Part shown: in pieces, positions 1,177 to 44,271 of the stretch
How positions within the stretch are numbered: the stretch's first letter is position 1
How the letters are laid out: every line of letters begins with the position of its first letter
Source: Ischnura elegans
Lineage: Eukaryota > Arthropoda > Insecta > Odonata > Coenagrionidae
Assembly (NCBI RefSeq): GCF_921293095.1
Contig: NC_060246.1
Location: forward strand, 91,323,030-91,387,029
Length of the DNA stretch: 64,000 nucleotides
Reading direction: 5' to 3'
Made by a program: the position numbers and the translations under genes
The notes under the pieces: generated by a model
The model's database searches: none
What the model was told of the DNA's origin: nothing
Seen by the model: only the letters and a program-made list of their open reading frames with translations

Positions 1177-4100
1177 CTTGTGCAGTGAAAGGAATGAGAT
1201 CAGATGAAAGGACACCTTTTTTTCCCCGACCGAGAATATCAAGGGTTACCATAGCTTTGTCCGGGTTCTACACTGTTTATACCATGACCATGTCAGGGTT
1301 CTGGACAGCACAAGTAGAGGCACTACTCCGGTTTGACTGGTATTTTTTGACCCGTACGTATTACTCGTTTGAACGTAGACAATCATTATCTAACTTTCAG
1401 AATGAATAACGCAGACTCTGTTCAACACTTGCCTGCATCTTAATTTCGAAAATTTTGCCCCCCATACTTAATCAGGTGTGAAATTTCGAAACTTTAGACT
1501 TTGATATAAGTTGGCTAGGATCTACTTGATATACTTTAAATATTGAAAATGGTAGCATGAGTTTAAAATGAATGATTAGTCGCGTAATAAGACTAAATAC
1601 GACCCGTCGCGTCGGGAGAAAGTTATGCGTCCTCACAAACCTTTCATAACGATGGCTTAGTTCTAACAGCACATATATCAAAAATAAATACTTTTGAGGA
1701 GAGCAAAAAATCGATTATTTTTCTCTAATTGTACTCTAAAATTAAAAACCAAAAATTCATAAAAATGAAAAAGAAGCATACATTTGCCAACAAAGAGTTG
1801 TTTTTTGCTTGATTTTCATTTTTTAATGTTATTACACTTTGTTTAAGATACCTGTCTCAAAGCGGACAAATTTTGAGATACGTGTTGTTAGAACGTAGCC
1901 ATCGATAAGTTGTTTTTAAAACGTGGACATGGTATACATGACCTTTTTTTTACATATTTTATTCGCTAAATTCAGATGGAGTAGGTTAGTTAAATTACTT
2001 TCCTTCTTCTCTGTTCAGTGTATGGTAAGATATCAGATGAAGGAATATTTATTCTTTTCCGAGAAGGTCTAATGTAGCTCTTTAGCTTTGTCAGTTGTAG
2101 CGAGTATAGAAATGTTATATGTAACTGTACACATGGCAGTGACAAAGAATAGGATCTTTTTACAATTTATATTCTCTGAGTTTTTCCCTATTTGTCCATC
2201 CACATCTCTTGCTAACAATAGCGTATCGTTGAAGTTGTTTATCTTTGGAAAATTACAGAGGTTGAAACCTGAGGATTAGAAACGGTCACAGGGAGTGACC
2301 AGTAGTCACTGCCATTCTTCTGCAAATATGAAAAATAACCTTGGTATAGGGTTTTCCCACAACTTAAATTCGGCCCATTAATAGACAGTTATGCCATATT
2401 AAAGTTTAAAAGAATTAAATAAATCCCAGAAACCATTGTCGGTAATGATACCAGCGTTAAAAGTTCTTCAAAGTTTATATCTTGTAAACACTTACGACTC
2501 AATTGAAATTGAGTGATTTTTGCGCACTAAAATTTTGGTAACGCATGCTCACAATTATGATTTCATTTCAAGGGACTTTGAAATATATTATTTTAATATT
2601 AGATACATGTTTACGCAAATTGGCAGACATTTAAATTTCATAATAATTAAAGAGGATGACTGTAACCAGCGCTTTGGTCAATGACATTTAGAATACTTTT
2701 GAAAATGCACACTATAGCATGTTGCAGATGGAACATGGTCAAAGGGAGAAAATAAATGACAAAGCTATAAATTTTGACCAATAGTGGAGTCAATGCTCTA
2801 GGGAAATTTTAAAATCGGAATAATAATTGTTAATCCAGAGTGAATATTTTTTTCGATATTTTTGATGGCGTATCCATCACGCACGAGATATTCTTTGAAA
2901 TGTAAAAAAAATGTGCCTGCTCATTTTTTAGAGATTCTTCGGAACTAAGAGTCTCGTATATTTCCTCAGAATGTTTAAGGGCTTGGTGATTATTTTGCAT
3001 TTTGCTACTACAGACTTTTCTGGTAGTTCGCTGGGAAAATATGTTTTGTTTAGCGAAGAAGTAAGAGCATTTGGGTTAGGATGACAGATGACAGGTGCAT
3101 TATTTATTTTCTGAGCGTCTGTTGTGAGCAGTTGAACCCTGTATTGGTCATGGGAAGAAAAACAGGTCTACAAGCAAACAGTGATGACTAAGCACTCCGG
3201 AAGTTCAATATTTTCCATGCCTGACATTCAATGGACATATATAATTTTACTAGGCACTCTTTCTTTGACTCGATAAATGGCGAATCCAGCTGTGTTAAAC
3301 AATCAGGAAGAATGTGCACTGTTCTCTTATATTATTGAAGCAACCTATTTTCCTAATGCTTGCATAGAAATTATCATTGTTTTTCTCAAAAACTGGAGCA
3401 AGGCCCTGAATTATCTTCTTCTGTGAGTATCGATTTTTTAGTATATAATCTAATTTATGGGTAATATCTATTGTATATGGTTTGCGAAAAAAATTTCGGT
3501 CAAAAAGATGATGCCCTAAATATTCTGTTAAAATAATAATATCCTTATGTCAATGCAAGAATCATTTGGTAAAGGTCTTACTTGCCATTTTTGTCAAATA
3601 TCTAATCGATGATTTATGTTGAGTTTTAAAAATAAAGTCATCCAGACGTCCCCAAATTTTAGTCTGTCTCCTACCTCTCCAAATATCCGTCGTGATTAAT
3701 CGCAGCGGCAACGCATCATCGCCAGTCCTTGCTGTTCCCCTACCACCTTCCAAACAGTGGCCAGTAAGCAGGGCGCTATCCCTCACACTTTGGCATGGTT
3801 GTCTATTAGCATCAAGGCATTTGGCAGCGGGTGCAAAACATGGATGATTTTTTTCTTGTACTTCACGAGTGAGTGCTTGAATAATAAGATTATTCTGTTC
3901 TGCTCGATAACACTCATCCATTCCAAAATGGTTGAGTCACCTAGCGAAAGTATTTCGTTTCCAGTTTTGATGGAACGACTGCTTATTCTTGTGGCGCTCT
4001 CCAGTTTCTTGCTGGACTTGACATTTTCTCAACGTTTTAAGGCCCTTCTCTGCTCCCGTTGCCCTATGTGGTCATGTACTAGCCACCATATTGATCTACA

Positions 4101-6650: not shown

Positions 6651-6770
6651 CGACCTCCCTTTCTATTCTCTTGGCTAACTCACCCCGAGGAACATCGATC
6701 TGAGGAGAGCTCGGTGTCGAACGTGATGCCATCCTTTCTCTGTCGAATACTTTATCCACGATTATTGCAA

Positions 6771-7432
6771 TAGGGTGGTTTCCTATTATTTTTGTATTGC
6801 CTAAATCGAAAGATTATTACTCCTGGAGTACGTGTTTCACGCTTTTAGATTTTGAAATGACGATGTCTATTTTTCGCGATTAAATGAAGAGTGAAAAATT
6901 TCAAGCGCGCGAAAACGCGACGGATAAGTATGAATGCTGGGAAAACTCCGAGTGACGTCGTTCTGGTTCCCGCTGCCGCAAGTGAGGTGACTTTGGGGCG
7001 AGGCTCTGAGCGCTGATACGACGCAGGATGCTAGCAGGTACCAGAGTACCATGCTAGCTGGTAGCGCTTGGCTTAAATAAGGATTATTAATACCTTATCA
7101 AGCGAAGTAATCTTTCTGACCTTAGGCAGTTTTAATAGGTGATTATTAAGATATGTTTCCCTGAGCTCTGTGTCTCATGCATGCATTGATAATCTCAGAC
7201 GATGTAATACTCCTATCTACTCGTATAGAAACTAGGTAGTGGAGTGTCACGTGGAGTGGCATCGCATGGGCGCCAATCTGGCCTTTTTCAAATGCGGTTA
7301 AAATTGACCATTGCAATTCGTATGATCTGGGAATTCTAAAACCAAATAACTTGTATATTATGAATACACTAATGGTAAGTAACGAATCGCAACCAATGCC
7401 CTTCGTTTTCTTTGATGAATGAAACTACCCTA
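6771..7432. mobile_element. Long TIR MITE family 1, copy 1
   Basis: The element begins (TA)GGGTGGTTTCCT and ends in the inverted complement, GAAACTACCC(TA). Two further copies with the same internal order are at 44272-44918 and 59514-60214. Internal landmarks are TTACTCCTGGAGTACG, GCGCGAAAACGCGACGG, a TGACGTC motif about 180 bp from the left end and a GTGGAGTGGCATCGC motif towards the right end. In copy 3 the latter is preceded by TGACGTCAC. No coding capacity. A TA target duplication (mariner-like) is possible but cannot be separated from the termini (ATAGGG...CCCTAT). Confidence 0.75.
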
Positions 7433-7499
7433 TTGAGGATTCTCAAAACGGCCAATGGATGTGTTGTCATCCACCGCTTTTTTAATTATAAAACTTCGG

Positions 7500-8345
7500 C
7501 TTCAGAAGTTGATACACCCTTGGAAGGCGGCGCGGGTGCTCCACCGGCTGCTCACGTTTTGGGCCATGGAGGAGATTATCCGGTGGAGGTTGTAAATATC
7601 TGGAGGGGCACCACTGGTTTTGAGCGTGGAGCGAAGTGTGGCCGGAATGGGGGTGCTTGAGTAGGACAAGCCACGCCCACTTTGACCTAAACATTGACAA
7701 TCCCATTAGGGTCAATGCTTGCAATTTTGTGAAAATTTTGGTCATAACTCGTTGATACATTAAAATAAACTATGGAATGCACATTTTTTTCTTACTTCAT
7801 CGGCAGGCTTCGCAAAATTATGAGTCAAACATCTTTTCCCAGCGAAAAATTACTATCAATCACCACGATTACGTTATACAACGAGCCCAGCCGAAAATAA
7901 AATTAAAAGTTAACTAGTCATTTACCTGCACTAATACTGGTATTTAACTTTATTATTGCCAACGAAAATCTAACAATTATTGTAATAAAGTATATATTTT
8001 CAAGGATATCCCCACCTGTAAAGTGGCTAACAGACAGAATTTATACATCAATGGAAGTATCGCGAATGAGGGTAAAATTCCGATGACTATCACCGGCGAA
8101 ATACTAATGGTTATAGTAGCATTTTTCACATAACGTAGTTCATTTTCAGAACAAAACTTAGCCACCTCAAAATATCAGTCGGAGACTAAGTCCAAAAATT
8201 GTCAAATCAAGATGGCGTAACTTTGGCCACGCTAAAAACTCAGAAACAGCGCCTCCAGATACTTACAACCTCCTTGGATGGATCCCCCGAGCAGCCTTCA
8301 CCACCAGCACACTTCTGGAAAGCATCAGATATTTTTTGATACACC
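7500..8345. repeat. Element with ~150-bp imperfect inverted ends
   Basis: The left arm (about 7500-7660) and right arm (about 8205-8345) are inverted relatives. Shared blocks are GAGGTTGTAAATATCTGGAG on the left and, read on the minus strand, GAGGTTGTAAGTATCTGGAG on the right, followed by an AGCGTGG block. Outside these both have GATACACC / GTGTATC. The AT-rich middle (7680-8200) has no supported gene. The superfamily is not recognised; it may be a foldback or TIR element. Confidence 0.45.
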
Positions 8346-8349
8346 ATTA

Positions 8350-8840
8350 CGTTCTTTTGGCTCAGAGTCATCGATAACCGAAGTATATATTTATTTTGGT
8401 CCATTTGATTGGAGCCATTTAAGTGAGGGGGAGGGGCAGTGGTGATCGGTTGGTATGTTAACGGCGAAGACTAAGGCAAAAGGTATTCCTTCTAGTCCCT
8501 TTCCCAGGGGCGCAGCCAAGAATTAAGGATGTGGGGGGTTTCAGGCACAACAGGGGTGTTTGGGGTGTGGCATACCTGCAAGGGTAAGCGGGAAATGCGA
8601 GGGCCCTCCGCCAGAAAAAAATTAAGATAAATGGTTAAAAATGGTGAGTTTTACGGCCTTCTGAGGGATATTTTATTAATCCTTACACTATTTTCTATAA
8701 GTATTCTTAATCCAAATAAATAAAATACATTAAACACAAAAACTTGTCTGAGCTCTGGGGGGGGGGGGGCATTATCCCCCAAAACCCCCCCTCGCTACGC
8801 CACTGCCCTTTCCCACTCTCGACTGTTTTGACTGTTTACC
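8350..8840 (+). repeat. Duplicated segment, copy B, interrupted by a hAT MITE
   Basis: Direct, diverged copy of 6465-6650. Similarity stops at CCCTTTCC (8497-8504) and resumes after the 301-bp element and its second CCCTTTCC (8806-8813), continuing CACTCTC. Similarity is lost again about 20 bp later. Confidence 0.55.
8505..8805 (+). mobile_element. 301-bp hAT-type MITE (family A), copy 1
   Basis: It starts CAGGGGCGCAGCCAAG and ends GCTACGCCACTG, a hAT-type inverted terminus. It is flanked by a perfect 8-bp duplication, CCCTTTCC (8497-8504 and 8806-8813). The interior (GGGTAAGCGGGAAATGCG, ATGGTTAAAAATGGTGAG, a G-run near 8760) matches 39958-40258 in the same orientation and 14764-15072 in reverse. 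No ORF. Confidence 0.85.
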
Positions 8841-9378
8841 GAAATTCATATTTCGTGATGATGCGATCTATCGAATTTGTAACTTTTAAACCCTATTCCT
8901 CGCGATTTTAAAGATCATATGGTAAATACTGAGAATAAATTTGTCACAACCATCCCATAACTGAGCAATGAAAATTCATGAAAACAGATTAAATTGCGTC
9001 CCAAGTAACAACATAAGTCAAGCTTCTTTGGGTGCCTCCTCTATTTGATCCTCTTGACTCAGTCGATGGTGTGCTCTCTACGCTTGAAGGAAGCGTTTCA
9101 CTGAATAACATCAATTAAGATGTATCTCATTTTTCCTGATAGACATTGGGTCGAAGATTTCTAATTAGTTTTTGTTTCATATAAAGGCTTGGACTATTTT
9201 ATATGGAGGGGTGACCTCCGAAAATTTCGTATGTTTCGACACAAAGGGGGATAGGGGGCAATGGCCCCCTTAGTTTCGCACCCTTCCAAAACCTTCAGTC
9301 TTCGTTGGAGCACTCTTCCCTTAGTGCCGGGCATACTTGGATTCTCCTCTCTCGTTGTACTTTTGCTCTCCTACATCA
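8841..9378. other. Spacer with a hAT-like scrap
   Basis: No gene supported. Around 9205-9290 the sequence GGGGTGACCTCCG ... AGGGGGCAATGGCCCCC looks like a degraded MITE terminus, but no partner end or target duplication was found. Confidence 0.3.
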
Positions 9379-11268: not shown

Positions 11269-11868
11269 AACCGACCCATTAGAAGACGTGGATATTTTAA
11301 ATTTATATATATAACTTGTAAAAAGTAACGCATGAAAATTAATTAATTACAGCCTAACTAACGCCCTAATTGAAAAAGATGCAGCAAGGTACGCGGTCTC
11401 CCCTTGTTAGCCTTAACGTCTCGCATTTCTATGGAGCGTTGAACCTGTCCTCCTTATTCAAAAATTCAGTAACCATAAATACATCAAAGTTTGGTATACC
11501 ATTTATAAATCGTTGGAATTTTCCTTCTCCCAACCAAGATTACCTTTTCTTGAACCCATCCTGGACAGCGAACCATTGCAACAACCAGCCAGCTCGGAAA
11601 TAAGGCTAACATCCCATGATTCTAGTTGCAAAGGGCGAACGTTCCGGCCGGCGTGAATACATACGCAACGAATAAGTCTTGCAGCAAACGTCTGAAATAG
11701 GTTTATTAGTTTGACTCGGTTCTTACAAAAAAAGTTTTGGCATGATAAACGGCATTGTGCCAAAATATACCCAGCGAAAAATAAATGCCATCATGCATTT
11801 ATTAAAGATTCAATGTGCTATTCGTACTACTCTTTCCAAACTTGAAGTTGACACGTAAATGAATCCCG

Positions 11869-12597
11869 TATATATACAGCGGGATGTGTGACTGACTCAT
11901 CTACTCATGGATACAAAATCACAGCCAAAACTGTGATTAGTGTGGACATTTGACTTATTGGACGTAAAAGTAAAAAAAAATTCATCGAGGGGAAAAATCT
12001 GAAAACTCGAATAAGTCGATTAGTTTTCGAGATATATCGACTTGAATTAACATGGGAGCCTTATGGGACTAAAACTTTTTTGCTTTTATTTCGTACTTTG
12101 AAACGTGGTAGGAACATGATATTCAATGGACGTAAACTAGATTTTTGATTGATTTTTTGGTACGGTTGTCATAACGGTGTATTTATATTTACTATTTCTT
12201 ATCATTTTTTTAAAAATTTCCAATGCTTTTCTTACGGGACTAACTTTGGAATTTTTTTTGACCAACTTGCAATAATCGTAGGACAAATTCCTTGAAACGC
12301 AAGATACTAGATTTTTTGCTTGATTTTTTGGCTATCTTGGAATATTCACAAGTCGAAAGAATTCCGAGGAATAAACGATTTTCGATTTTCCATTGTCGAG
12401 GAGACGAATATTAAATTTCGGATTTCGGCTTTGAGACTTCGGCATATGAAAATTTGGAATCTCCGTGAAAACCCTTAGAGGGTACTCCGTACCCTCACGC
12501 CCTACCCTGTTTTTCCGATAACCCTCTTGGTTAATTCATAATAAAATTCCGAAAAATATCCTGCACGTGAGAAAATCATTGTCGCCATTTTTTTGTG
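11869..12597. repeat. Head of the internal array, TATATACAGC module
   Basis: Begins TATATACAGCGGGATG followed by TGACTGACTCA and ATGGATACAAA. The same head recurs at about 21176 and 24688, each time right after a palindrome block, so it marks a unit start. The rest (12000-12540) is AT-rich with a short palindrome GAGGGTACTCCGTACCCTC at 12478-12496 and no gene. Confidence 0.45.
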
Positions 12598-12599
12598 AA

Positions 12600-13799
12600 G
12601 CACACGATCTTGAATAACTTGGCAACCGTTCAAGTAAGAGGAATGAAATTTTCAGGGTAGTACTATTATCAAAAAAGACAACTTTTGAAATGATAACCAT
12701 TCCACTCGATCGATTCATGTGAGAGTTATATCGATACCAATCTCCTTGGATACGCTTTATTCGCTAATAACTTTCTCGTTATTCGAAGTATGAATACGAA
12801 ATTCAAATGTAATACTAAAGTTGACGTGCTTAATCTGACAAAAGTTAAATCAAGCGGATCGAATAATTAGAAGCGAAGTTATAATCGATCCAATGGTGCA
12901 TTCGATATATGTCTTTTTCAGACTTGTTTACATAGTTACGGGGATAAAATTTTTAATTATTTGCTTGGACAGCAACGTACTATACGTACATGTAAAATAT
13001 TTTGTTGAGTAATGATTCCTTTGGAAGATATATCGAAATGAAATAATTTCGATAGGTCTAATTTTCTCCTTTGTTATTGACCGTAGATGTCCGAAATTTT
13101 TAGGATAGTACGTGATTGGTGATATAAGATTTCTGTTATATTTTGGTCTCCATGGCAACCATAGTTTCAACTTTATGCCGAAATATATTTTCAATGTAAA
13201 GTAAATGGGGATATATCTAAATCGTTTTATACAAGTTTCCTCACAAGCACACGATCTTGAATAACTTGGCAACCGTTCAAGTTAGATGAATGAAATTTTC
13301 AGGGTAATACTATAATCAAAAAGGACACTTTTTTCAATGATAACCATTCCACTCGATCGATTCATGTGAGAGTTATATCGATAACAATCTTCTTGGTTAC
13401 GCTTTCTTCGCTAATAACTTTTTTGTTATTCATGGTATGAATATAAAATAAAAATACAATACTAAAATTGACGTTTTTAATCAGACAAAAGTTAAATCAA
13501 GCGGATCAAATAATTAGAGGCGAAGGTATTAGCTATCAAAGTGTGCATTCGATACATGTCTTTTTCAACTTATTTACATAGATACGGGGATAAAATTTTT
13601 AATTATTCGCTTATACAGCCACGTTCTATACTCACATGTGAAATATTTCGATGAGTAATGATTCATAATGAAGATATATCGAAATAAAATAATATCGATA
13701 GGTCTCATTTTATCCTTTGTTATTGGGCGTGCCATTTTGAAATTTTTATGATAGAACGTGAATTGTGATATAAGATTTCTGTTATCTTTTTCCAATATC
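12600..13799. repeat. Tandem duplication, ~647-bp period
   Basis: Unit 1 (about 12600-13155) and unit 2 (about 13247-13799) both start GCACACGATCTTGAATAAC. They share AACCATTCCACTCGATCG, AAAAGTTAAATCAAGCGG, GGGGATAAAATTTTTAATTA and ATAAGATTTCTGTTAT in order, with scattered substitutions. The open frames over them are short and not conserved as coding sequence. Confidence 0.7.
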
Positions 13800-13837
13800 T
13801 AAGCCACAAACAGACGTATTTTGGTCCTTTTTATTGA

Positions 13838-13930
13838 CATAGCGAATGCCAATCTAATTAGAAATTGAACCCATATGTATTCAATTGGCACATCTGTCGG
13901 AATAATAGGGATTCGTGGTAGTAAAAAATC
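13838..13930 (+). repeat. Direct repeat pair with 16208-16305
   Basis: Both copies contain TTAGAAATTGAACCC, ATTCAATTGGCACATCTG, TCGGAATAATA and GGATTCGTGGTAGTA. They are about 2.37 kb apart in the same orientation inside the composite. Confidence 0.6.
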
Positions 13931-13994
13931 TCCTTGGAACTTCCAGGAAATCATGAGCCCAAGAAGGTCAATAAGAAACCAATCAAGTCTTCTT

Positions 13995-14720
13995 TACTGG
14001 AAAATTTCATATCTCCCTATCCCCGCGACGTAATATCAGGTTTAGGATAACGAATATTTGCATTTATATATGCTCATAATGAACGACTGATGACCGCTAG
14101 CAGTACACCCATATAAACCCCAGGCATCCCCCTGAAACCCCTAAAAAATGTAAAATGTGATATTTACTCTCCTTTTTAGGACATTCTGGCCGACATTACG
14201 CCGCATTGCCCGTCACCTCACAGTTCTAGATATGGAATATTTGCTAATAGCGGGCCACTGTAAACCATGCGGGAAAAAAAAACCTGAAAACACTCGATCA
14301 CCTCCGGGACCTTCCAGAAAAATAAAATTTATTAAGTTCTCCTTTCCGGGTAGTTTTCGTCACCATTCAGGCCTTGTTCCTCAAACCTTCGAGTTATTAG
14401 AACCCACGATAACCCCGTGAAACTTCCCAAAAAGATTATTTTCTGAAAGCTCGCCTATTTCGGTATTTATCGTCAGAATTCCCCCACTGTTCCAGATCCC
14501 TACGACTTATCGGCACGGAATATATGAGAACGATTGGTGACCAGTGGTTGATCACAAATATAAAACCCCCGGTATTCCGTTGAAACCCAACATAAAAATG
14601 AAATTTGCCATTAGGTCTTCTTTTATGTGTACTTATCAACGACATTACGCTGCATAGCCCTACCCTTTCCAATAATCACTATAGAATAAATGTGGACTAC
14701 TGTACCTAATACTATTTTAT
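13995..14720 (+). repeat. Array module copy 1 (CCCC-rich type), lacking the palindrome block
   Basis: Starts with the GGAAAATTTCATATCTCC / CGTAATATCAGG segment shared with 17500, 21540, 22738 and 25062. It continues with GAACGACTGATGACCGC (14081), CACCCATATAAACCCC, GGAATATTTGCTAATAGC and GGTGACCAGTGG blocks that recur at 18074, 22267, 23437 and 25793. At the other full copies the module leads into a GC-rich palindrome block; here it leads to a hAT MITE instead. Confidence 0.6.
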
Positions 14721-14763
14721 GCATATTAAGTGCAGTATACCACTGCCAAGGAGTGCCACCGAT

Positions 14764-15072
14764 CAGAGGCGCAGCGAGGTGGTTTTGGGGGATAACATCC
14801 CCCACCCCGGAGCTCACAGAAATGTTTAAATTTAAACTATTTTACTTAATTGGATTAATATTGCTGATAGAATAGTGTGACAAATAAGAAACTATCCCTC
14901 GGAAGGGCGTAAAAATCGCCAATTCGAACCATTTATCTTAATTTTTTCCGGCGGAGACGGCCGGAAGGCCTACGCACCTCCCGCTAACCCTGCGGGTATG
15001 CAATACCACCAAGCCCCCCAGCATAAAATGTGCCTGAAACCCCCCCTAGCCTTAATTCCTAGCTATCCCCTG
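14764..15072 (-). mobile_element. hAT-type MITE (family A), copy 2, reversed
   Basis: Left terminus CAGAGGCGCAGCGAGG, right terminus CTAGCTATCCCCTG. The interior is the reverse complement of 8505-8805 (for example CTTAATTTTTTCCGGCGG and CCCGCTAACCCTGCGGG). The flanking octamers CCACCGAT and CCATAAAT agree at 5 of 8 positions, an aged target duplication. It is nested inside the giant composite, more diverged than the 8.5- and 40-kb copies, and probably older. Confidence 0.65.
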
Positions 15073-15213
15073 CCATAAATCATGCGATTAATAAATATGA
15101 TGAATCTCGGCAAATGAAAGATTAGATCCAAAGATATGCTGAACAAGGAAAGATATGAATGCAACTATGTACTGTTTTCAATATATTCTCCTAATATATA
15201 CTTCAGAGATCTT

Positions 15214-16110
15214 AGGGGAGTTTTAATCATTCAATTAAAATAAAAGAGCTAAATAACACACTGAATTCAATGCAATGTGCACTCTATTGTTGTCCCGTCC
15301 CGAATAACTGTTTATTTATGTAACGCCTTACTTCATAGCAACAATGCAAAACTGCCAATCTGGAAAGCGTCAGCGGTGCTGAGAGGTACCCTCCGTGCAC
15401 TCACGCGTAGGAGTTAGGGACGAGTGTTTGGGGTACAGGAATTTCGGAGAGTGAACCGATTATCAATGAAGACACATGAAATGTATGGAGCACTCCGTTG
15501 ACTCTACCTCTACTCTCAGGCAAGCGCTCGATTTTTACCATGGAGTGGAAGTGAAAGCGGTTTTGAAGTAGCGATTAAACTTTTCGAGGGGAGTTTAAAT
15601 AACTTAATTCAAATTAAGTAGTTAAATAACACACTGATTTCAATGCTATGTGCACTCTATTGTTGTCCCAACCGGAATAACTGCGTATTTATTCCACGCA
15701 TTACTACATAACAGAAAGTCCAAACGACCAATTTGGACCACAATAATCCGCGTTACGGTGATGAAAATAGTTTTGAATTAAAATTGTTATTGTTAATGTT
15801 GTAGATAAAAAAGCCCTCCTGGTTGTCGCACCCATGTATATTGCTTTGCTTTCCTGGTACAATATCCCGCGCAGCAGTGGTGAATGTGGTTTTGAATGTA
15901 AATTTATGTGGAAAATGTTTATGAAAAAATCTTCAGTGAGTGGTTGCGGGTTTGGTCTAACTAACACTGCTCTTGCAGTGATGTATATGTTTTGGAATTT
16001 TAATTTTTATGGATAATGATAGAGACAACAATGCCGAACAACCAAAGTGGACCACAATATTTCAAATTACGGTTATGAAAATGGTTTTGAATTAAAATTT
16101 TTAAGGATTA
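15214..16110 (+). repeat. Diverged direct repeats, ~370-bp spacing
   Basis: A segment at about 15214-15350 recurs at 15586-15720: AAATAACACACTGA, GTGCACTCTATTGTTGTCC and GAATAACTG are shared. Its downstream part (GACCACAATA, TTACGGT, ATGAAAAT, GTTTTGAATTAAAATT) recurs again at 16040-16100. No gene. Confidence 0.5.
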
Positions 16111-16207
16111 AATTTCTGTCTGGATTTTTCGCGTTCCGATTGCCACCTCTCGCCTGAATATAGTCGAAGTAATAAACGATCAAATTGTGCATTCCATAGA
16201 TTCCTTC

Positions 16208-16305
16208 AGATTTATTTACATTGCGATTGCCAATTTAATTAGAAATTGAACCCGTGTTTATTCAATTGGCACATCTGTCGGAATAATATGGATTCGTGGT
16301 AGTAG
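16208..16305 (+). repeat. Second copy of the 13838 direct repeat
   Basis: See 13838-13930. Shares ATTCAATTGGCACATCTG and TCGGAATAATA; differs by scattered substitutions. Confidence 0.6.
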
Positions 16306-16648
16306 TAGGTCCAAGTCCAAGTATTTTTCTCGTTATTGTTTTCCGCAGTTCCCAGCTTTGCAGCTGTCTCCTGGGCGTTTCGTTTAGTAATCTTGCAGGC
16401 AGATTAGTTGATCACGTTTAACAGATTAAAAGAGTCATGGCATAATAATACTGGACAGGGAATAAGGGGATAGGGATATGGGAAGGGTTGAGGGCACATT
16501 TGGGGAGGCGGTGTTTTTGTTTCAGCGGAGGTTCGTAGTCCCAAAAATTTTTTACAGTGCATTATTTGTTTTATCAAATGTAAGGGAAAATTTTCTAGAA
16601 CAGATTTTAGTTTCGCTAGAAAGTGGTAGTAATACATCTCCTTGAAAC

Positions 16649-17446
16649 ATGCCATTTATAATTTAGTGTGATAGAAAGATATTTCAAACGGCATAAACAA
16701 TATTGACGGTCGTCAAGGGGACAGTAAGCGAAACACGATAAAATTGAACATTTAATGGATGTTTATTTCTAAATTAAGTGTAAATCAGATAGAAAACGAA
16801 ATGTTACTGCAGGAATAAGAAAGTGCAATTCTTTTTCTTTCAAATGATACGTGGCTTAACTTAATGAGACCATTATCACTAAATTTAATATGCAAAAACA
16901 AATACGTTTGTAGGCATTGAAAATTTAATTTACATGTATTTCTTATGGAATTGACTCATGGGACATGACCTGCCCGAAATTTTTCTCTATTAGTGCGATG
17001 AAGTGTACGGTATTTATAGTATATCCATCCTTAGCCAATACAAACAAACTGAATGGTTGACCATGTGATAAAACGTGTAACGTAAAATTGTGTATGTGTG
17101 AAAAACTAAGATTTTCAATATTTGGAACATGCCATTTATAATTTAGTGTGATAGAAAGATATTTCAAACGGCATAAACAGTATTGATGGTCTTCAAGGGG
17201 ATAGTAAGCAAAACACGCTCAAATTGAACCTTTTTTGGATATTTATTTATAAATTCAGTGTAAATCAGGTATAAAACGAAATGGAACTGCAGGAATAAGA
17301 AAGTGCAATTCTTTTTCTTTCAAATGATACGTGGCTTAGCTTAATGAGACCATTATCAGTAATCATAATACCGAAAAGCAAAGACGTCTGCAGGCAATAA
17401 ACATTAAATTTACATGTATTTCTTATTTAAATGACTCATGGCACAT
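16649..17446 (+). repeat. Tandem duplication, 479-bp period
   Basis: Units at 16649-16966 and 17128-17446 start CATGCCATTTATAATTTAG. They share ACGGCATAAACA, CTGCAGGAATAAGAAAG, ATGATACGTGGCTTA and TTTACATGTATTTCTTAT. The first half is over 90 percent alike by eye. About 160 bp between the units is unique. Confidence 0.7.
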
Positions 17447-18779
17447 TCCAGGGACTCATGAGCCCAAGAAGGACTATGAGAAACCAATGAACACCTCTTT
17501 ACTGGAAAACTTTCATAACTCCTAATCCCCGTGACGTAATATCAGGTGTAGGATAACGAAAATGATATTTATATATGCTCATAACATGTTATACGAATAG
17601 AAGTTAAGTTTCTTTCAACGTCCTTGATTACTCAGAAAAAGTTAAAATATGGAGAAAAAAAAGTGTGGACACTACTCATTTGTTTCCCGCGAATGTCTTA
17701 CTTTTTACTGTATTATTCTCAAAATATGGATGTCATAGGGGTGACCTCAGTTAGATATGATAGTAAATAAATGGGACCATATAATACCGTCATCTTCAAA
17801 CCCGCTGAAACACCCTCAAAAGATTAAATTATGCATATAAGTCTCCTTTTCGGGTACTTATCGTCACTATTCCTCAACTTTTCCAACCCCTACCACTCAT
17901 CGCCACGGAAATGATGTTCACGATTGGTGACCACTGGCAGTGGAAACCTATTAATCTCAATACACCCCCAAAAAAATTGAATTTTGCATTTGGAAGTCTA
18001 CTTTTTGGGTACTTTTTGTCACAATTCCACCGCTGATCCCTACCCCCACGACTCATCCCTACGGAATTCATGTGAACGACTAGTGACAACTAGCAGTACA
18101 CCCATATAAACCCCAGGCATCCCCCTGAAACCCCTCAAAAATGTAATATGTGACATTAAATCTCCATTTTGGGACTTTCTGGCCGATATTACGCCGCACT
18201 GCCCGTCCCCTCACAGCCCTAGATATGGAATATTTGCTAATGGCGGGCCACCGTAAACCATACGGGATAAAACCTGAAAACCCCCGATCGCATTCTGGAA
18301 CCTCCCAGAAAAATTAAATTTTTTAAGGTCGCCTTTCCGGGTAGTTTTCGTCACCATTCAGCCCGTGTTCCCCAACCCTATGAGTTATTAAAACCCCCGA
18401 CAACCCCTTGAAACTTCCCTAAATATTATTTTCTGAAAGGTCACCTATTTGGGTATTTATCGTCCAAATTCCGCCACTGTTCCGGATCCCTACGACTATC
18501 GGCACGGAATTAATGAGATCAATTTGTGACCCCTGGTTGAAAACAAATATGACACCCACAGTATTTTTTTTAAACCTCCCCAATTACACAAACCTAAAAA
18601 TTGAAATTTGTCATTAGGTTTTCTTTTATGGGTACTTGTCGCCGCAATTACGTCGCATTGCCCTACCCTTTTCAGTCACCACTACAGAATCAATGTGGAT
18701 TATCGTTGACCTCATGAATCACACACATTAAAACCCCTGCATCCCACTGGAGCCCCCCTCGGAGGAGGAGACCCGTAAT

Positions 18780-20660
18780 GGGGGCTAAGTGGAGCAGCAG
18801 CGGGGGGGCCTCCTCACCACCGAGGCGGCGAAGCCGCCCTTCAACGAACTGGCGAAGCTAGGGGGCGTAAGTAACCCTTTGGCGGCGATGTCGCCCTTTA
18901 CTAGAAACGGTAAAGCCGACCCAAGGAACAAGCGGCACAGCCGCTGGTGGCTTCCTCCACCCCCTTTTCAGTTCTGAAATATTCTGAACTGTCACTGCCC
19001 TCTAGGCGGCAAAGCCAAGTATTGTAGCTCTAGGGGACTCCCTTGTCCCTGGGCGGCGAAGCTATCCCTGAAACGAGGATCGGCGAAGCCGCGGTACAAC
19101 CGCGGGTAGCGACTCTCCCCTCCCACCGACCGCGGCAGGGAACGGCGAAGCGGCTCGGGGAGGCGACCGATCAAGCTGGCCGCGAAGTGGATTCGAGCGC
19201 TAGAGTACCCGAGGACTTAGTGGGCAGACGTTCGATGAACAGCAAAGCTGTTACGAGGAGTTAACCGGGAATGGCGGTCGTGACGCATCCAAGGGTCCGC
19301 TTCCCTCCCCTCTGTACAAGCACTTCGCGGTCAGATTACTCTTATAAAATTCTTCAAACACCCAAAAAATTAGACGGCGACGGCCGTTACGAGAACTAAC
19401 TGGCGTAGGCACGGGGGCGTCAGTAACCCTCGGGCGGCAGAGCCGCCCTTTACTATAAACTGTGAAGCCGCCCATTGAACTTTGGGGCTTCTAACACCCC
19501 TGGGCGGTGAAGCCGCACCTTAACGAATAACGGCGAAACAGTTACGAGTTTGAAGCGGGGTACCCCCGGGGGGCACACTTAACCTGACCTAAACCTCGTT
19601 GAGAGGCGACAAAGCCGCCTCTCAACGAGGAACTACGACGCCGTCCCTAAGAATGAGCGTGGCACCCGCGGTAAGACTCCTTTATCTCCGGGCGGCGTGG
19701 TGCAGCCTACGAGGAACGGCGAAGCCGTCCAGAGGTCTGAGCAGCGCAGCTTCGGGGGATTCCCTTGCCCATGGGCGGCGATGCTATCTCTGAAACGAGG
19801 ATGGGCGTAGCCGCGGTTAGTGACACTTCCCTCCGACCGTCCACGGCAGGGAACGGCGAAGCGGTCGAGGGAGGCGGCGAACCAAGATGGCCGCAAAGGG
19901 GCTTCTAGGGGTTCGAGCCCTATTGCCCCGGAGGGCTTTGTGGACAGCGGTAGGAGGGTGGGCGATGACGTTCCGAAGACTTTGCCGGCGATGCTGGTGG
20001 TGGAGCAGCCAAGGGTCCGCTTCTCTACCCCCTGGCCGGCAAAGCCGGCCCATATCACTTTTTGGTCAGAATTTTCTAATAGAAATTCTTTGGACAACCA
20101 CATTCTAAGACAGCGAAGCCGAATCAGGGGATTCTAAGTTAAAGATGGAAGCTGACCTTATGACCGATTTCTTATGAAGTTTGCATTTACAAAAAATTAT
20201 GCATTCCATTTCGGAAAAAAGTGAACTTGGCCGCGGGGTCCTCCCATTCCCTCTGGTCACTGGATATATAAGAGCGGAGCTTCTAGGAACGGCGAAGCCG
20301 TTACGTGGAGTTCACTGGCGACGACGAACGTGGCGGGTGCTACCCTTCCCATCGGCCGCCGAAGCCGACACCTAGAACTATATGGACTGAGCTACGAGGA
20401 ACGGCAAACCGTTCCGAGGAATGTGCTGGAGAAGATGGGTGCGGTGTGCGCTATCCTTCCTCACCAGACGGCGAAGACGGCCCCAAGGACTTTGTGCACA
20501 AAGCTTCGAGGAACGACAAAGCCGTTCCGAAGAATATGCCGGCGAAGCAGACCGTAGCGTAGAATAGGGTTCGTTTTCCTCCCCTCCCCCCCTTCCCGAA
20601 CCCGGTAATTTTGGGAACGGAGCTTCCAATGGGTGTTTCTGCGAAGCCAGCAGAAAATCC
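18780..20660. repeat. GNA-triloop hairpin array, block 1
   Basis: A GC-rich stretch with many short perfect or near-perfect palindromes centred on GCGAAGC and close variants. The stem flanks vary (GGGCGGC/GCCGCCC, AACGGC/GCCGTT, CCGGC/GCCGG), but both sides change together, so pairing is kept. Loops read GAA, GTA or GCA, with some decayed copies (ACAAAGC, GATGC). About ten exact GCGAAGC cores were counted by eye in this block. No coding role is proposed. Confidence 0.7.
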
Positions 20661-20889
20661 GTCTGTGAATACATTTTATGGAAAAATATAATACGTTTCA
20701 TTGCCCTTGACGTAGTTTCGTGGGTTGAATAATGAAAATGATTACTATATATACTGTCCATATCATCAACTGATTTCTGGTAACAGATTGTTTTCATCCC
20801 CTCCTGTTAAAGAGATAAATGTTAAACAATGCCAAAAATCACATAAATTTCGATTTATAAAAGATTCATAAAACATATATAGTACTTTC

Positions 20890-21165
20890 GGCGAACGAGT
20901 CCTTACAATGGCGGCTACAACGGGTGCTACAATACTCCCTGGACGGAAAAGGGATGTTTTGGACTTAGTGCACAGAGCTTCGACGCATAACGAGGCCATT
21001 ACGAAGATTGCGACGCCGAAGCCGATCGTGGCGTAGCCGAGGGTTCGTTTTGGCTCACCATTTGCGGTCAGATGATTGGTATAAAAAATTCTCTAGAAAC
21101 ACAAAAATAGACGGCGAAGCCGGATCCGGGGGTTCTAAGGGGGCGGAGCCCCCTAGCGAGCTACA
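20890..21165. repeat. GNA-triloop hairpin array, block 2, and unit end
   Basis: Contains GACGCCGAAGCCG, GACGGCGAAGCCGG and the terminal GGGGGC-GGA-GCCCCC hairpin. It is followed by AGCTACAGCGAGT and then the head TATATACAGCCC of the next unit. Confidence 0.6.
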
Positions 21166-21175
21166 GCGAGTCCCA

Positions 21176-24100
21176 TCTATATACAGCCCTTGTGGTGACT
21201 GACTCATGGATACAAATTCCCGACCACTTCTAGAAGTGCTGGAGAGCTGAAATTTGGCAGACATGCGGGGATCCCGAAATGATCCGGAGGAAAAATCCGA
21301 AAACCGGAAGTTTCCGCCACGTGTCGTCGCTAGGTCGACAAAATGGCCGAAATCGCGCATTTCCCGGGAACAGTTTTTCGGTTTTTATTTTACTGCGGGC
21401 TAACCGTTTATGCCACACGGATTGTTAATGCATTGTTTGAAAGCTAATAAGTGTGGGCACGTAATAACGTAATTTTCTAGTTTTCTTTTTAAGAAAATTG
21501 CTGCCAAAATGGCGTCCAAAAATTCATTTTTCGAAAAACATTTCATACATTCCCCTCCCCTCGACTTAATTTAAGGTGTTGAATAACGAAAATGATTATT
21601 ATATATGCTCATAATATTGTCTACGAAACATAGGTAACAATTTTCTTTTGTCGTCCTTGGTTACTCAGAAAAAAATTAAAATATTCCGAAAATCACCGAA
21701 AATTACGATTTCCAAAAGATTAACACTAGATTTTGCCAATTTTAACCTGACCGATTTCTTTCAAACTTTGTAGTTACATGCTGCTATGCATTGTCTTTTA
21801 GAAAAAATGAACTTTAAATAAATGATTCAATGGATTTCACCGCGAAAAAATAAAAATGGCGGACACTACTCACTTTTTTCGGGGACTGGTTTGGTTTGTA
21901 TTGTATTACTCTCGAAATATGGATGTCATAGGGTACACTTCTGCTAGATATGACAGTAAATGAATGTGACCATATAATTTCGTCATCTTTAAACCCCCCG
22001 AAACCCCCTAAAAAATTAAAATTTGCACATAAGTAGCTTTTTCGGGTACTTCACGTCACAATTCCGCCGCTTTTCCAAGCCTTAACACTCATCGCTACGG
22101 AATTGATGTGGACAATTGATGACCCCTGGTAGTGCAAACCTATAAACCCCCGGTAAACCCACATACACCCCCCAAAAAAATAAAAAATTTCATAAAAGTC
22201 TACTTTTTGGGTACTTTTCGTGACTAAACAACCGCCCCCAACGACTCATCCCCACGGAATTTATGTGAACGGCTGGTAACCGCCAGAAGTACACGCATAT
22301 AAACCCCCGGTATCCCCCTGAAATCCCCCCTAAGTGTAAAATGTACCATTATGTCTCCTATTTGGTAACTTTTCGCAAGCAATACGCCGCACTACCCGTA
22401 CCCTCTGAGATTTAGATCCGAAATATTTGATGAGGGCGGGCCACCGTAAACCATACGGGAAAATATACCAGGAAACCTCCGAAGGAAAAATTCGAAAACC
22501 GGAAGTTTCCGCCACGTGTCGTGGCTAGGACGACAAAATGGCCGAAATCGCGCCTTTCCCGGGGACGGTATTTCGGTTTTTATTTTACTGCGCGTGAACG
22601 GTGTGTGCCACGCGGATAGTTTATCTACGTTTTCAAATCTGATTAATGTAGTCACGTAAATATGTAATGGTCTTAGATAATTTTAATATAAATTGCCGCA
22701 CAAATGGCGTCCGAAAATTTTTTTTTTCCAAACAAATTTCATAACTCCCTCTCCCCTCGTCGTAATAGCTGTTGTAGGATACTGAAAATGAATATTATAT
22801 ATGCCTATAACATCGTCTACGATATGTAGGTAACAATTTTCTTTCGTCGTCCATGGTTTTCCAGAAAAAAATAAAAACGTTCCCAAAATCACCGAAAATT
22901 GCGATTTTCAAAAGATTGACACAAGATTCCACAATTACATACATCTATGCATATGGTTTCCGAAAATGTAAGAATTTAATAAATGTTGCAGTCGATATAA
23001 CAGCGACAAAATAAAAATGGCGGACACTACTATTTTTTTCCGGGGAGAAGTTTACTTTTTATTGTACTAATATCGAAATATGGATGTCATAGGGCACACT
23101 TCTCTTAGATATGATAGTAAATGCATGTGGCCATATGATAAGGTCATCCTTAAACCCCCTGAAACCCCCTAAAAATTAAAATTTGCATGTAAGTAGCCTT
23201 TTCGGGTACTTTTCATCACAATTCCGCCGCTTTTCCAAGCCTTACCACTCATCGCTACGGAATTGATGTGGACAATTGATGACCCTTGGTAGTCATAAAA
23301 CCTATAAACCCCCGGTAAACCCACATACACCCCCCAAAAAATAAAGTTTTGCCAATAAGTCTACTTTTTCGGTACTTTTCGTGACTATTCCACCGCTGGT
23401 TCTTACCCCAACGACTCATCCCTACGGAATTTAAGTGAACGGATGGTCACCGCCGACAGTACACACATATAAACCCCCGGTATCCCCCTGAAATCCCCCC
23501 CAAATGTTAAATGTGCCATTAAGTCTCCTGTTTGGGAACTTCTCGCAAACATTATGCCGCACTACCCGTCCCCTCTGAGCTCTAGATCCGGAATATTTGT
23601 GGAGGGCGGGCCACCGTAAACCATACGGGAAAGTATACCAGAAAACACCCGATCAACTCCTGAAACCTCGCCGAAAAAAAAATAAAAAAAGTTTAAAGTC
23701 GCTTTTCCGAGTAGTTTTCGTCACAATTTAGCCGGTGCCTCTACTACTTATTAAAACCCCCGATATCCCCGTGAAACCTCCCAGAAAAGTTTTGTAATAA
23801 ATCGCCTCACCGGGTAAAAGAATCGTCAGAATTCCGCCACTGTTCGGGACCCCTAGGACTTATCGGCACGGAATTTATGAGAACGATTTGTGAACACTGG
23901 TTTTCACACGTATAAAACCCCCGGTATTCCGTTGGAACCCCCCGCAAAAAATGAAAACTTGCCATTAAGTCTTCTTTTATGGGTACTTGTCGCCACTATT
24001 ACGCCGCATTGCACTACCCTTTAAAATCATCGCCACATGATAATTGTGGACGATTGATGACCGCATGTATAACACATGAAAACCCCCTAATACCCCTGGG

Positions 24101-24687
24101 CACCCCTCTCGGTGGAGAGGAACATTTATGAGGACTAAGCGGAGCAGCCGCGGGGGGCTCATCATCCCCAAGGCGGCGAAGCCGCCCCACAACGAGGAAC
24201 GGTGAAGCCGTTCCGAGGAGTAACTGGCGTAAGCGAGGGGGAGCTTCAGTAACCCTTGGGCGGCGAAGCCGCCCCAACGTTAAAGCGGCGTAGCCGCTGT
24301 GGGCTCCCTACGCCCCTGGGCGGCGAAGCCGCCCCTTAAACGAAAAACGGTGAAATAGTTCCAAAATGCCCTTGCCCTCTGGGCGGCTATGCCGACCCCT
24401 GACGAGGAACGGCGAAGCCATTCCGAGTATTAAGCGGGGTAGCCCCGGGGGGGCACACTCAAACCCTGGGCGGCGAAGCTGCCTCTCAACGAGGAACGGC
24501 GTAGCCGTTCCGAGGAATGAGTGGGGCGCTTCCCTACCCCCTGGCCGGCGAAGCCGGCCCCTAGCTGAGGTGAGATTATTCGAAATAAAATTTTTCGAAG
24601 AACCACAAATGTAGACGGCGAAGCCGGACCCGGGGTTTTTAAGGGGCGGAGCCCCTTAACGAGCGCGCGGAGCGCAGCGAGTCTCTA
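21176..24687 (+). repeat. Array unit 2 (~3.5 kb) with an internal ~1.2-kb duplication
   Basis: Head TATATACAGCCCTTG with TGACTGACTCATGGA, then CTTCTAGAAGTGCTGG and CACGTGTCGTCGCTAGG. The blocks CACGTGTCGT (about 21315 and 22510), ATAACGAAAATGATTA-like (21590 and 22785), ATGGATGTCATAGGG (21920 and 23080) and CATCGCTACGGAATTG (22090 and 23250) each occur twice inside this unit, so it contains a tandem duplication of about 1.17 kb. It ends in a palindrome block (24165-24660). No supported gene. Confidence 0.65.
24165..24660. repeat. GNA-triloop hairpin array, block 3
   Basis: Regularly spaced palindromes: GGCGGCGAAGCCGCC at 24172-24186, AACGGTGAAGCCGTT at 24198-24212, then AGCGGCGTAGCCGCT, GAACGGCGTAGCCGTTC and CCGGCGAAGCCGG. 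The block ends with a 9-bp stem (TTAAGGGGC, loop GGA) at 24639-24659. Loops are GAA, GTA and GGA. Paired changes on both sides of the loop are evident. Confidence 0.7.
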
Positions 24688-26906
24688 TTATATACAGCCC
24701 TTGAGGTAACTGACTCACTGATGGATACAAATTCCCGACCACTTCTAGAACTGCTGGAGAGCTGAAATTTGGCACGCGTGCGGGGAACCCGAAATGATCC
24801 GGAGGAAAAATCCGAAACCCGGAAGTTTTCGCCACGTGTCGTCGCTAGGACGACAAAATGGCCGAAATCGCGCTTTTTCCGGGGACCCTCTTTCGGTTTT
24901 AATTTTACTGCGCGCAAACTGTGCGTGCCACACGGGTCGTTAATGCTTTTTTTGAAAGTCGATGAACGTGGGCACGTAATAAAGTAAATTTATTAGTTTC
25001 CATTTGAAAAAATTGCAGCCAAAATGGCGTCCAAAAATTGATTTTTCGAAATAAATTTCATACCTTCTCCTCCCCTCGACTTAATTTAAGGTGTTGGATA
25101 ACGAAAATGATTATTATATATGCTCATAACATCGTCTACGAAATGTAGGTAACAATTTTCTTTCATAATTCTTAGTTACTCAGAAAAAAATTAAAGTATT
25201 CCGAAAATCACGGAAAATTACGATTTTCAAAAGATTAACACAAGGTTTTGTCAATTTTAACTCAACCGATTTCTTTCAAACTTTGTAGTTACATACATCT
25301 ATGCATTTTATTTCAGTAAAAATAAACATTTTATTATTTATTTAATGGGTTTAACCGTGAAAAAATAAAAACGGCGGGCACTGCTCACTTTTTTCAGGGA
25401 CTGGTTTGCTTTTTATTGTATTACTTTCGAAATATGGATGTCATAGGGCACAATTCTTTTAGACATGACAGTAAATGAATGTGACCATATAGTACCGTCA
25501 TCTTTTAACCCCCCGAAACCCCCTAAAAAATTAAAATTTGCATATAAGTAGCCTTTTCGGGTACTTTTCGTCACAATTCCGCCGCTTTTCCAATCCTTAC
25601 CACTCATCGCTACGGAATTGATGTGGACGATTGATGACCGCTGGCAGTAAAAATCTGTAAACCCCCGGTAAACCCACATACACCCCCCCCCCCAAAAATA
25701 AAATTTTCAAATAAGTCTACTTTTTCGGTACTTTTCGTGACTATTCCACCGCCCCCAACGATTCATCCCCCCGAAATTTATGTGAATGGATGGTGACCGC
25801 CAGGAGTACACGCATTTAAACCCCCGGTATCCCCGTGAAAACCCCCCCAAATGTAAAATGTGTCATTTAGTCTCCTATTTGGGTACTTCTCGCAAACATT
25901 ACGCCGCACTACCCGTCCCCTCTGAGCTCAAGATCCGGAATATTTGTTGAGGGCGAGCCACCGTAAACCATACGGGAAAAAATACCAGAAAACCCCCAAT
26001 TACCACATGGAACATCGCCGAAAAAAAATAAAACAAATTTAAACTCGCCTTTTCGAATAGTTTTCGACACAATTTAACCAGTGCCCCTACCACTTATTAA
26101 AACCCCCGATAACCCCGTGAAACCTCCCAAAAGATTTCTAATAAATAGCCTCTCCAGGTAAAGGAATCATCAGACCACTCTTCCGGTCCCCTAGGACTTA
26201 TCGGCACGGAATTTATGAGAACGATTTGTGTCCACTGGTTTAACACAAGTATAAAACCCCCGGTAATCCGTAGGAACCCCCCGAAAAAAAATGAAAAACT
26301 TGCCATTAAGTCTTCTTTTATGGGTACTTGTCGCCACTATTAATACAATCATCGCTACATGATCACTGTGGACTTTTGGTGACCGCATGCATAACACATT
26401 AAAATCCCCCTGGGCACCCCTCTCGGTGGGGAAGACCATTTATGAGGACTAGGCGGAGCAGCCGCGGGGGGGCTCCTCCGCCTCAAGGCGGCGAAGCCGC
26501 CCCACAACGAGGAACTGGCGTAGGCGAGGGGGAGCTTCAGTAACCCCCGGGCGGCGAAGCCGCCCCGATGTTCAAGCGGCGCAGCCGCTGTGGACTCTCC
26601 CCACCTCTGGGCGGCGAAGCCGCCCCTTAAACGAATAACGGTGAAACAGTTCCGAAATGCCCTCGCCCCCTGGCACACTAAACCCCCGGGCGGCGAAGCC
26701 GCCCTTCAGCGAGGAACGGCGAAGCCGTTCCGAGGAATGAGTGGGGCGCCTCCCTACCCCCTGGCCGGCGAAGCCGGCCCCTAGTCGAGTTGAGATTATT
26801 CGAACTTCAAACGTCTTCCAACGACCACATATGTAGACGGCGAAGCCGGAACCGGGGTTTTAAGGGGCGGAGCCCCTTAACGAGCGCGCACAGCGCAGCG
26901 AGTATT
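24688..26906 (+). repeat. Array unit 3 (~2.2 kb), last unit
   Basis: Head TATATACAGCCCTTG, then CTTCTAGAACTGCTGG, CACGTGTCGTCGCTAGG, ATAACGAAAATGATTA, ATGGATGTCATAGGG, CATCGCTACGGAATTG, a GAATGGATGGTGACCGC module and a palindrome block (26480-26905), in the same order as unit 2 but without its internal duplication. The array stops at GCAGCGAGT (about 26905); the following AT-rich DNA leads to the right TIR. Confidence 0.65.
26480..26905. repeat. GNA-triloop hairpin array, block 4
   Basis: Seven exact GCGAAGC cores by eye. Examples are an 8-bp stem GGAACGGC/GCCGTTCC with loop GAA at 26713-26731, a 7-bp stem GGCCGGC/GCCGGCC near 26762, AGCGGC-GCA-GCCGCT near 26577, and the terminal TTAAGGGGC-GGA hairpin at 26860-26880. 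Confidence 0.7.
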
Positions 26907-44270: not shown

Positions 44271-44271
44271 T

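Follow-up and report, generated by a model that had tools for sequence, protein, structure and literature searches.

GC-rich hairpin arrays in a 64-kb stretch of Ischnura elegans DNA as the probable 3' part of a Helitron-like element family

The stretch analyzed here (64,000 nucleotides of Ischnura elegans, contig NC_060246.1, positions 91,323,030 to 91,387,029; hereafter the window) contains arrays of GCGAAGC mini-hairpins between positions 18780 and 26905. These hairpins very probably form the 3' portion, rich in GC, of a family of non-autonomous Helitron-like (rolling-circle) elements, a reading based on insertion between A and T, a TC start and exact CGAG|TC junctions between units. The arrays are naturally delimited by three transposon units that stand in tandem at 11864-26902 (Table 1). 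It is likely that the units grew in tandem by rolling-circle copying, and the hairpin at the element end together with the CGAG that follows it probably acts as the stop signal, as judged from its likeness to characterized Helitrons. A functional role of the internal hairpin modules as extra stop or contact sites is proposed tentatively.

The number of hairpins was far above chance expectation. The first-pass annotation of this DNA had noted by eye more than twenty GCGAAGC-type cores, each at the center of a short palindrome, and both observations were borne out. Positions 18780-26905 contained 26 copies of GCGAAGC and 41 of GCGNAGC, compared to means of 0.5 (maximum 3) and 1.25 (maximum 4), respectively, in 100 first-order Markov simulations. 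Every copy was on the plus strand, and the minus strand had none. Twenty-six perfect hairpins with a three-base loop and a stem of at least 6 bp were detected versus a simulated mean of 2.5 (maximum 11), and the stems listed earlier (GGGCGGC, GGAACGGC, GGCCGGC, AGCGGC, and TTAAGGGGC) were all found in the sequence. The hairpins formed dense blocks at about 24130-24660 and 26444-26903 and a degenerate block at about 18780-21154, with AT-rich DNA between them. The whole window contained 57 GCGNAGC cores versus 11.5 in dinucleotide shuffles. In the host genome (1.72 Gb, 110 contigs), GGCGGCGAAGCCGCC was present 6,528 times and the reversed string only twice. Among 521 GC-[GAT]NA-GC cores in the window and the fetched regions described below, the loops included GAA (327), GGA (72), GCA (49), and GTA (20).

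Copies of the element, all from one contig and located through a hairpin-based pattern, were studied in the window and in 19 fetched regions of contig C1 (one of 6 kb, the others of 10 kb), which represent the head of at least 100 hairpin matches listed on C1 and are biased toward intact hairpins and tandem arrays. Alignment of a 1,832-bp unit from one fetched region (L014) to all fetched regions and the window recovered recurrent units with fixed ends. A unit starts at A|TC...TATATACA and ends with a GNA-loop hairpin and CGAG|T. The 5' end occurred as TCCTATCTATATACAGCCC, TCTCTATTATATACAGCCC, TCTATATTATATACAACCCG or TCCCGTATATATACAGCGGG, plus small variants, and TC was found at the start of all 23 full units with a start pattern that also permitted TT. 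Variants of the 3' hairpin were TTAAGGGGC-GGA-GCCCCTTAA, TTAGGGGGC-GTA-GCCCCCTAA, and AGGGGGC-GGA-GCCCCCT, and only 11 distinct sequences were present among 34 terminal hairpins. The GNA hairpin came first at the terminus; after it stood CGAG, then usually another small GC hairpin, and CGAG again at the very end. The terminal hairpin had a stem of 9 bp (or 7 bp), and its foot lay 8-22 nt from the element end depending on the copy, compared to about 10-12 nt in canonical Helitrons. The 23 full units contained 5-19 copies of GCGAAGC each, and the number of hairpins beyond the terminal one ranged from 4 to about 19 per unit.

The bases flanking the units showed insertion between A and T. Of 30 unit starts, 20 directly followed CGAG in a tandem arrangement, and the other 10 were preceded by A (nine starts) or G (one start). 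Nineteen of the 34 unit ends abutted another start, and each of the remaining 15 ends was followed by T. CGAG was present at all 15 non-tandem ends, but CGAG is built into the end pattern and other ends would be missed. Visual inspection of flanks of the aligned units revealed no target-site duplication. Tandem units were found repeatedly. Three units follow one another in L014, where the middle unit shares 99.8 and 99.9% identity with its two neighbors, and in other fetched regions different subfamilies alternate with exact junctions. The base at a tandem junction is G where an independent insertion requires A, so concatemers formed by rolling-circle copying or by bypass of the end fit the arrays better than serial insertion does. 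Unequal crossing-over may have enlarged the arrays afterward. At about 7945-7975 of one fetched region (L010), a unit without the usual terminal hairpin is joined to the next at GCCGGCGAG|TCCC; use of an internal end and a deletion at GGCGA microhomology explain this join (about 7970) equally well.

These ends resemble those of canonical Helitrons (Helraiser/Helibat and insect Hel1), which share the 5' TC, the A|T insertion, the 3' subterminal hairpin and the exact head-to-tail junctions; the consulted parts of two articles name TC, CTRR and a 3' palindrome as hallmarks, together with insertion between A and T that leaves no duplication (PMC4067079, PMC6544945). Unlike canonical Helitrons, the family studied here ends in CGAG rather than CTRR and carries 4 to about 19 further similar hairpins. 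Accounts of Helraiser, as far as they were consulted, describe a 3' hairpin that acts as a terminator and whose deletion raises read-through, a stem exchange that left about 90% of the activity, and a change of the loop, made together with one closing pair, that lowered activity to the level of the hairpin deletion (PMC4778049, PMC5876387). In the same accounts the plus strand moves, and circles with exact end-to-end junctions are formed (PMC4778049, PMC5876387). A similar dependence on the loop would suit a family with constant loops and variable stems. By this analogy, RepHel supplied by an autonomous relative would nick at A|TC and peel off the plus strand, which is the strand carrying the GNA loops. 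Copying would halt when the terminal hairpin folds, and the strand would be cut after CGAG; bypass of the stop, or more than one round of copying of the circle, would give tandem units. The internal modules would then be duplicated terminator-like hairpins kept as extra contact or stop sites for RepHel, or they may have built up when copying read through into a neighboring copy's terminator.

The arrays of the long units consisted of a repeated double-hairpin module, A followed by B, with a spacing of 26 nt where both hairpins were intact. Hairpin A (GGGCGGC-GAA-GCCGCCC) is followed by a short spacer and in many cases by CGAG, and hairpin B (GGAACGGC-GAA/GCA-GCCGTTCC) has CGAG at its foot. Short units contained a few A and B hairpins together with types C (GGCCGGC-GAA) and D (AGCGGC-GCA), and all four types stay distinct by position between copies. 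Many internal hairpins share the layout of the terminus, a C-GNA-G hairpin and then CGAG. The CGAG foot was present on all 22 B-type hairpins with GAACGGC or AAACGGC stems in three long arrays, two of which are near duplicates. Among 186 unique contexts of internal and terminal hairpins, 110 had CGAG at -2 to +10 of the stem end versus a background of 14.8% of 16-nt windows; the contexts are related by duplication, and the excess is given as a description with no probability attached. From this layout the internal hairpins are tentatively taken as terminator-like modules; that they are a passenger repeat is about equally probable. In alignments of positions 24682-26902 with copies in L009, L010, L011, L014, and L021, several gaps (uncounted) started or stopped inside hairpins, as though hairpins promote or bound deletions.

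The first-pass annotation had also proposed that both arms of the stems change together through selection for, or copying by, single-stranded structure. Arms did covary between different hairpin positions: for stem positions 3-7 the Watson-Crick fraction was 0.46-0.67 versus 0.32-0.50 with shuffled arms (220 unique arm pairs), and at stem positions 8-12 no excess over shuffled arms was found. For homologous positions in different copies, 185 reference hairpins gave 2,099 alignments; a pair was excluded if its flanks were identical, its stem was gapped or too little of its flanks was covered. Internal stems had 11,023 unchanged cells, 1,011 single changes, 15 compensatory changes and 25 double changes that did not pair. 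The 15 compensatory cells comprise five distinct pair changes, two of which give 13 of the cells, at about four sites, and 15 pairing changes among 40 double changes is near chance, as a third are expected to pair. Terminal hairpins had 3,310 unchanged cells, 35 single changes, 126 compensatory changes and no non-pairing double changes. There the expectation of compensatory change held weakly, as the 126 cells trace back to few independent events, namely one or a few switches of a pair that became fixed between subfamilies.

A second comparison used 11 of the 23 full units, near-identical and overlapping copies being left out by choice with no formal cut-off and three long chimeric units being trimmed to their last 2,210 bases. 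Of 585 cells in this alignment, terminal hairpin included, 559 were unchanged, 18 had single changes, 7 had wobble pairs, none had compensatory changes and 1 had a non-pairing double change; 42 cells were gapped. The stem types represent old differences, fixed between positions and carried along whenever the element is copied, and the data do not support covariation of stems as a process that continues in the array today. The array is mostly an expanded double-hairpin module inherited within one transposon family; the first-pass annotation had itself named expansion of one ancestral repeat as an outcome that would refute its reading. Ongoing selection for single-stranded structure, or copying based on it, is a very improbable source of covarying stems throughout the array, even with the covariation between positions and the terminal pair switches between subfamilies. 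A single-strand copying mechanism is probably involved nonetheless: the Helitron-like ends of the carrier, the A|T insertion, the exact junctions, the conservation of the stems and the restriction to one strand agree with that part of the proposal.

Stems were more conserved than the DNA around them. In the 11-copy alignment, column diversity was 0.060 in internal stems, 0.115 in GC-rich spacers and loops, and 0.169 in the AT-rich body, and pairwise diversity was 0.047 in the last 44 nt and 0.164 in the first 40 nt. None of 414 circular shifts of the stem mask matched the observed conservation. The stems had been defined in one copy, and the test was rerun with each of the 11 copies held out; stem diversity was then 0.050-0.068 and spacer diversity 0.104-0.122 (ratio 0.43-0.65), with 0 of 413 to 24 of 445 shifts reaching the observed value. 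Diversity at CpG sites alone kept the same order (stems 0.067, spacers 0.142, body 0.186), and CpG context therefore does not explain the conservation of the stems.

The conservation of the stems bears on the possibility that the A-B modules are a passive passenger, a GC-rich minisatellite that expanded within an element of Helitron type and does not contribute to its mobility, the likeness of the stems being due to homogenization or hairpin-templated repair. We regard this as a serious possibility that falls somewhat short of an even chance. It accounts for an array formed mostly by expansion of a two-hairpin module, for the chance level of compensatory changes in internal stems, for the variable number of cores per unit and for CGAG feet whose conservation hardly exceeds that of the other spacer columns, and tandem repeat blocks are known in rice Mothra and in DINE-1/HINE elements from the consulted parts of their descriptions. 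A passenger repeat does not predict the lower diversity of stems relative to spacers in all 11 hold-outs or the many modules that repeat the hairpin-plus-CGAG layout of the element end, and the A, B, C, and D types that stay distinct by position argue against strong homogenization.

Folding of the arrays as single-stranded DNA was consistent with hairpin formation. Each of six short segments formed the expected hairpins (z -1.30 to -3.92), and the 476-nt 3' part of unit 3 folded more stably than shuffles, with a z score of -3.71 for the plus strand and -4.34 for the minus strand. The hairpins might serve as sites for second-strand priming or for protection of a single-stranded plus-strand intermediate rather than as terminators, and the single-strand origins of rolling-circle plasmids offer a parallel. 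All 41 GCGNAGC cores lie on the presumed transferred strand, the 3' segment folds strongly, and GCGAAGC mini-hairpins are described as extraordinarily stable in the literature consulted in part. We nevertheless consider a priming or protection role improbable. It leaves the CGAG after many hairpins unexplained, the minus strand folds equally strongly, and descent of the modules from one shared ancestor predicts the same bias to one strand. Action of the GNA stem-loops in the transcript of the element is the least probable of the explanations considered; GNA loops are stable in RNA too, which favors it, but no Rfam family was found at gathering score in the window.

Several results weigh against the Helitron-like interpretation or against a role of its internal modules. 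The 3' end is CGAG, a one-letter departure from CTRR, and circles of Helraiser form without the palindrome in the consulted parts of its accounts (PMC4778049, PMC5876387). No RepHel with matching ends was found among the scanned open reading frames, a genome-wide search for PF14214 not being part of the analysis. No CGAG was found near the stem in 76 of the 186 contexts, and all five GGACGGC-GAA hairpins of the long arrays lacked it. Diversity was 0.090 in the 18 spacer columns that belong to CGAG versus 0.119 in the other 280, which gives no clear sign of separate constraint on the CGAG feet. The lower divergence of the stems shows constraint or homogenization and does not specify a function, and compensatory changes in the internal hairpins are not in excess. 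No element clearly ending at an internal hairpin was found in the examined copies, the join in L010 at about 7970 being the single candidate. A functional terminator bank, in which hairpin-plus-CGAG modules would be selected because multiple sites for stopping or contact let RepHel terminate more reliably and promote satellite-like tandem amplification, is speculative and, in our estimate, unlikely to be correct as a whole.

The open reading frames of the window did not reveal the source of the transposition enzyme. Ten of the 23 open reading frames of at least 100 amino acids in the window were scanned, including five of the six that overlap units 1-3, and none had a Pfam match; four of the five such frames in unit 1 were scanned with the same result. 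Ten picked open reading frames from the fetched regions and the window gave matches to reverse transcriptase or integrase (five), DDE (one) and PIF1 helicase (one), and three matched nothing. The PIF1 match (E 2e-67, together with its 2B domain) is a 443-amino-acid open reading frame in L027 on the strand opposite the hairpin element; this frame presumably resembles the helicases of Helitron RepHel proteins. It lies in a segment (L027 1423-3695; G000:C1:24552422-24554694) where the PIF1-type frame, apparently interrupted by an insert, is followed by a Helitron-like 3' end. About 0.9 kb past the helicase frame is GACAGGAC-GAA-GTCTGTCGGGTCAGCTAG|T, a GAA-loop hairpin with one bulged base followed by a canonical-looking CTAG|T that ends at L027:3695; when the fetched regions and the window were scanned for the exact GTCAGCTAGT end, it was found in this single place. 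The L027 segment seems to be another Helitron-like element with a C-GAA-G hairpin near its end, an end unlike that of the hairpin-array family. The first-pass suggestion of an element-encoded Rep-like protein thus found no match in the 10 scanned window frames and a helicase frame in L027 that apparently belongs to another element. Repetitive open frames with RSFKVID/GHSRSLT words were present in L018 (about 2240-3000 and 8674-9210), derived from short tandem repeats near a unit.

The hairpin-array family has partial counterparts among known mobile elements. The insertion site differs from that of Helentrons, which insert at T|T. Non-autonomous Helentrons (DINE-1/HINE) also have internal repeats and a 3' palindrome (PMC4067079, consulted in part), but they prefer T-rich sites and have subterminal inverted repeats, and A|T insertion is found here; unit 3 contained three inverted repeats of 10-12 nt, none of which pairs the two ends. 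Rice Mothra likewise is a high-copy, non-autonomous Helitron with internal repeat blocks between its ends, but its Bloc A is about 20% GC, and the part of its description that was consulted does not mention a hairpin array. The Fusarium FoHeli elements (Helitron2) have GAA-loop 5' terminal hairpins in FoHeli1 and FoHeli2; they differ in their asymmetric terminal inverted repeats, and internal arrays are not mentioned in the consulted part of their description.

Bacterial REP/BIME sequences with RAYT, as described in partly consulted sources, are similar in their clusters of palindromes, short conserved foot and proposed IS200/IS605-like mover, and some bacterial REPs carry GCGAAGC-like cores as this family does. 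They differ in being bacterial, in having GTAG on the 5' side and in their usually alternating orientation; here the hairpins have one orientation (41 of 41 cores on one strand), carry a 3' CGAG foot and lie within a larger element. The exact 27-bp B module and the exact hairpin and terminator patterns had no matches in prokaryote and viral sequence collections. In the open-access literature, with most subscription work outside its scope, nothing linked a Helitron with GCGAAGC or GTCAGCTAG, and no such array was found among the listed matches, judged by open-access titles and the openings of abstracts, for Helitrons that carry several or internal hairpins, terminators or repeated palindromes.

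The units and hairpins of the window are listed in Table 1.

Table 1. Units, junctions and hairpins of the Helitron-like family in the window
Feature	Positions	Strand	Remarks
Unit 1, large composite (9.3 kb)	11864..21170	+	A|TCCCGTATATATACAGCGGGATG start, CGAG end; A before start; end abuts next unit
Unit 1 degenerate GC-rich hairpin region	18780..21137	+	
Unit 1 terminal hairpin	21138..21154	+	AGGGGGC-GGA-GCCCCCT
Head-to-tail junction of units 1 and 2	21167..21174	+	Exact, CGAG|TCCC (21170/21171)
Unit 2	21171..24681	+	AT-rich body partly duplicated (~21171-22477 and 22478-23680); from unit match and boundaries
Unit 2 internal hairpin array	24130..24638	+	
Unit 2 terminal hairpin	24639..24659	+	TTAAGGGGC-GGA-GCCCCTTAA
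Head-to-tail junction of units 2 and 3	24678..24685	+	Exact, CGAG|TCTC (24681/24682)
Unit 3, complete 2,221-bp element	24682..26902	+	Target T at 26903
Unit 3 internal hairpin array	26444..26859	+	
A-type hairpin, GGCGGC-GAA	26487..26501	+	CGAG 6 nt past stem
A-type hairpin, GGGCGGC-GAA	26549..26565	+	Next 12 nt without CGAG
D-type hairpin, AGCGGC-GCA	26575..26589	+	Next 12 nt without CGAG
A-type hairpin, GGGCGGC-GAA	26609..26625	+	Downstream CGAA replaces CGAG
A-type hairpin, GGGCGGC-GAA	26688..26704	+	CGAG 5 nt past stem
B-type hairpin, GGAACGGC-GAA	26713..26731	+	CGAG at stem foot
C-type hairpin, GGCCGGC-GAA	26763..26779	+	Then CCTAGTCGAGT
Unit 3 terminal hairpin	26860..26880	+	TTAAGGGGC-GGA-GCCCCTTAA, then CGAG
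Unit 3 3' tail	26881..26902	+	CGAG, small imperfect GC hairpin, terminal CGAG

The sequence CCTAGTCGAGT that follows the C hairpin of unit 3 contains a canonical-looking CTAG|T. Positions 14918-21200 aligned in two pieces with C1:1405000-1411473 at 96.9% identity, which indicates that composite unit 1 was itself copied. The 5' end of this unit (11864-11884) is a short palindrome, TCCCG-TATATATACAG-CGGGA, unlike those of other subfamilies, and the unit contains direct duplications of 0.55 kb (12598-13144/13245-13790, 87% identity) and 0.33 kb (16642-16966/17122-17446, 88% identity). A dispersed repeat of about 0.66 kb was found outside the hairpin elements at 6769-7435, 44260-44919, and 59512-60217, with 83-88% identity among its copies.

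The recognition of Helitron 3' ends and the control of read-through are poorly understood. Within a single genome, the family described here combines several subfamilies and tandem arrays with thousands of hairpin copies and with terminator-like hairpins whose number varies by degrees, and the rules that govern a terminator (loop, stem, and CGAG vs. CTAG) may be readable from this natural variation. Through such a family a transposon could also give rise to satellite-like arrays. If the terminator bank proposed above were correct, the arrays would be a eukaryotic counterpart of the bacterial REP/BIME arrays.

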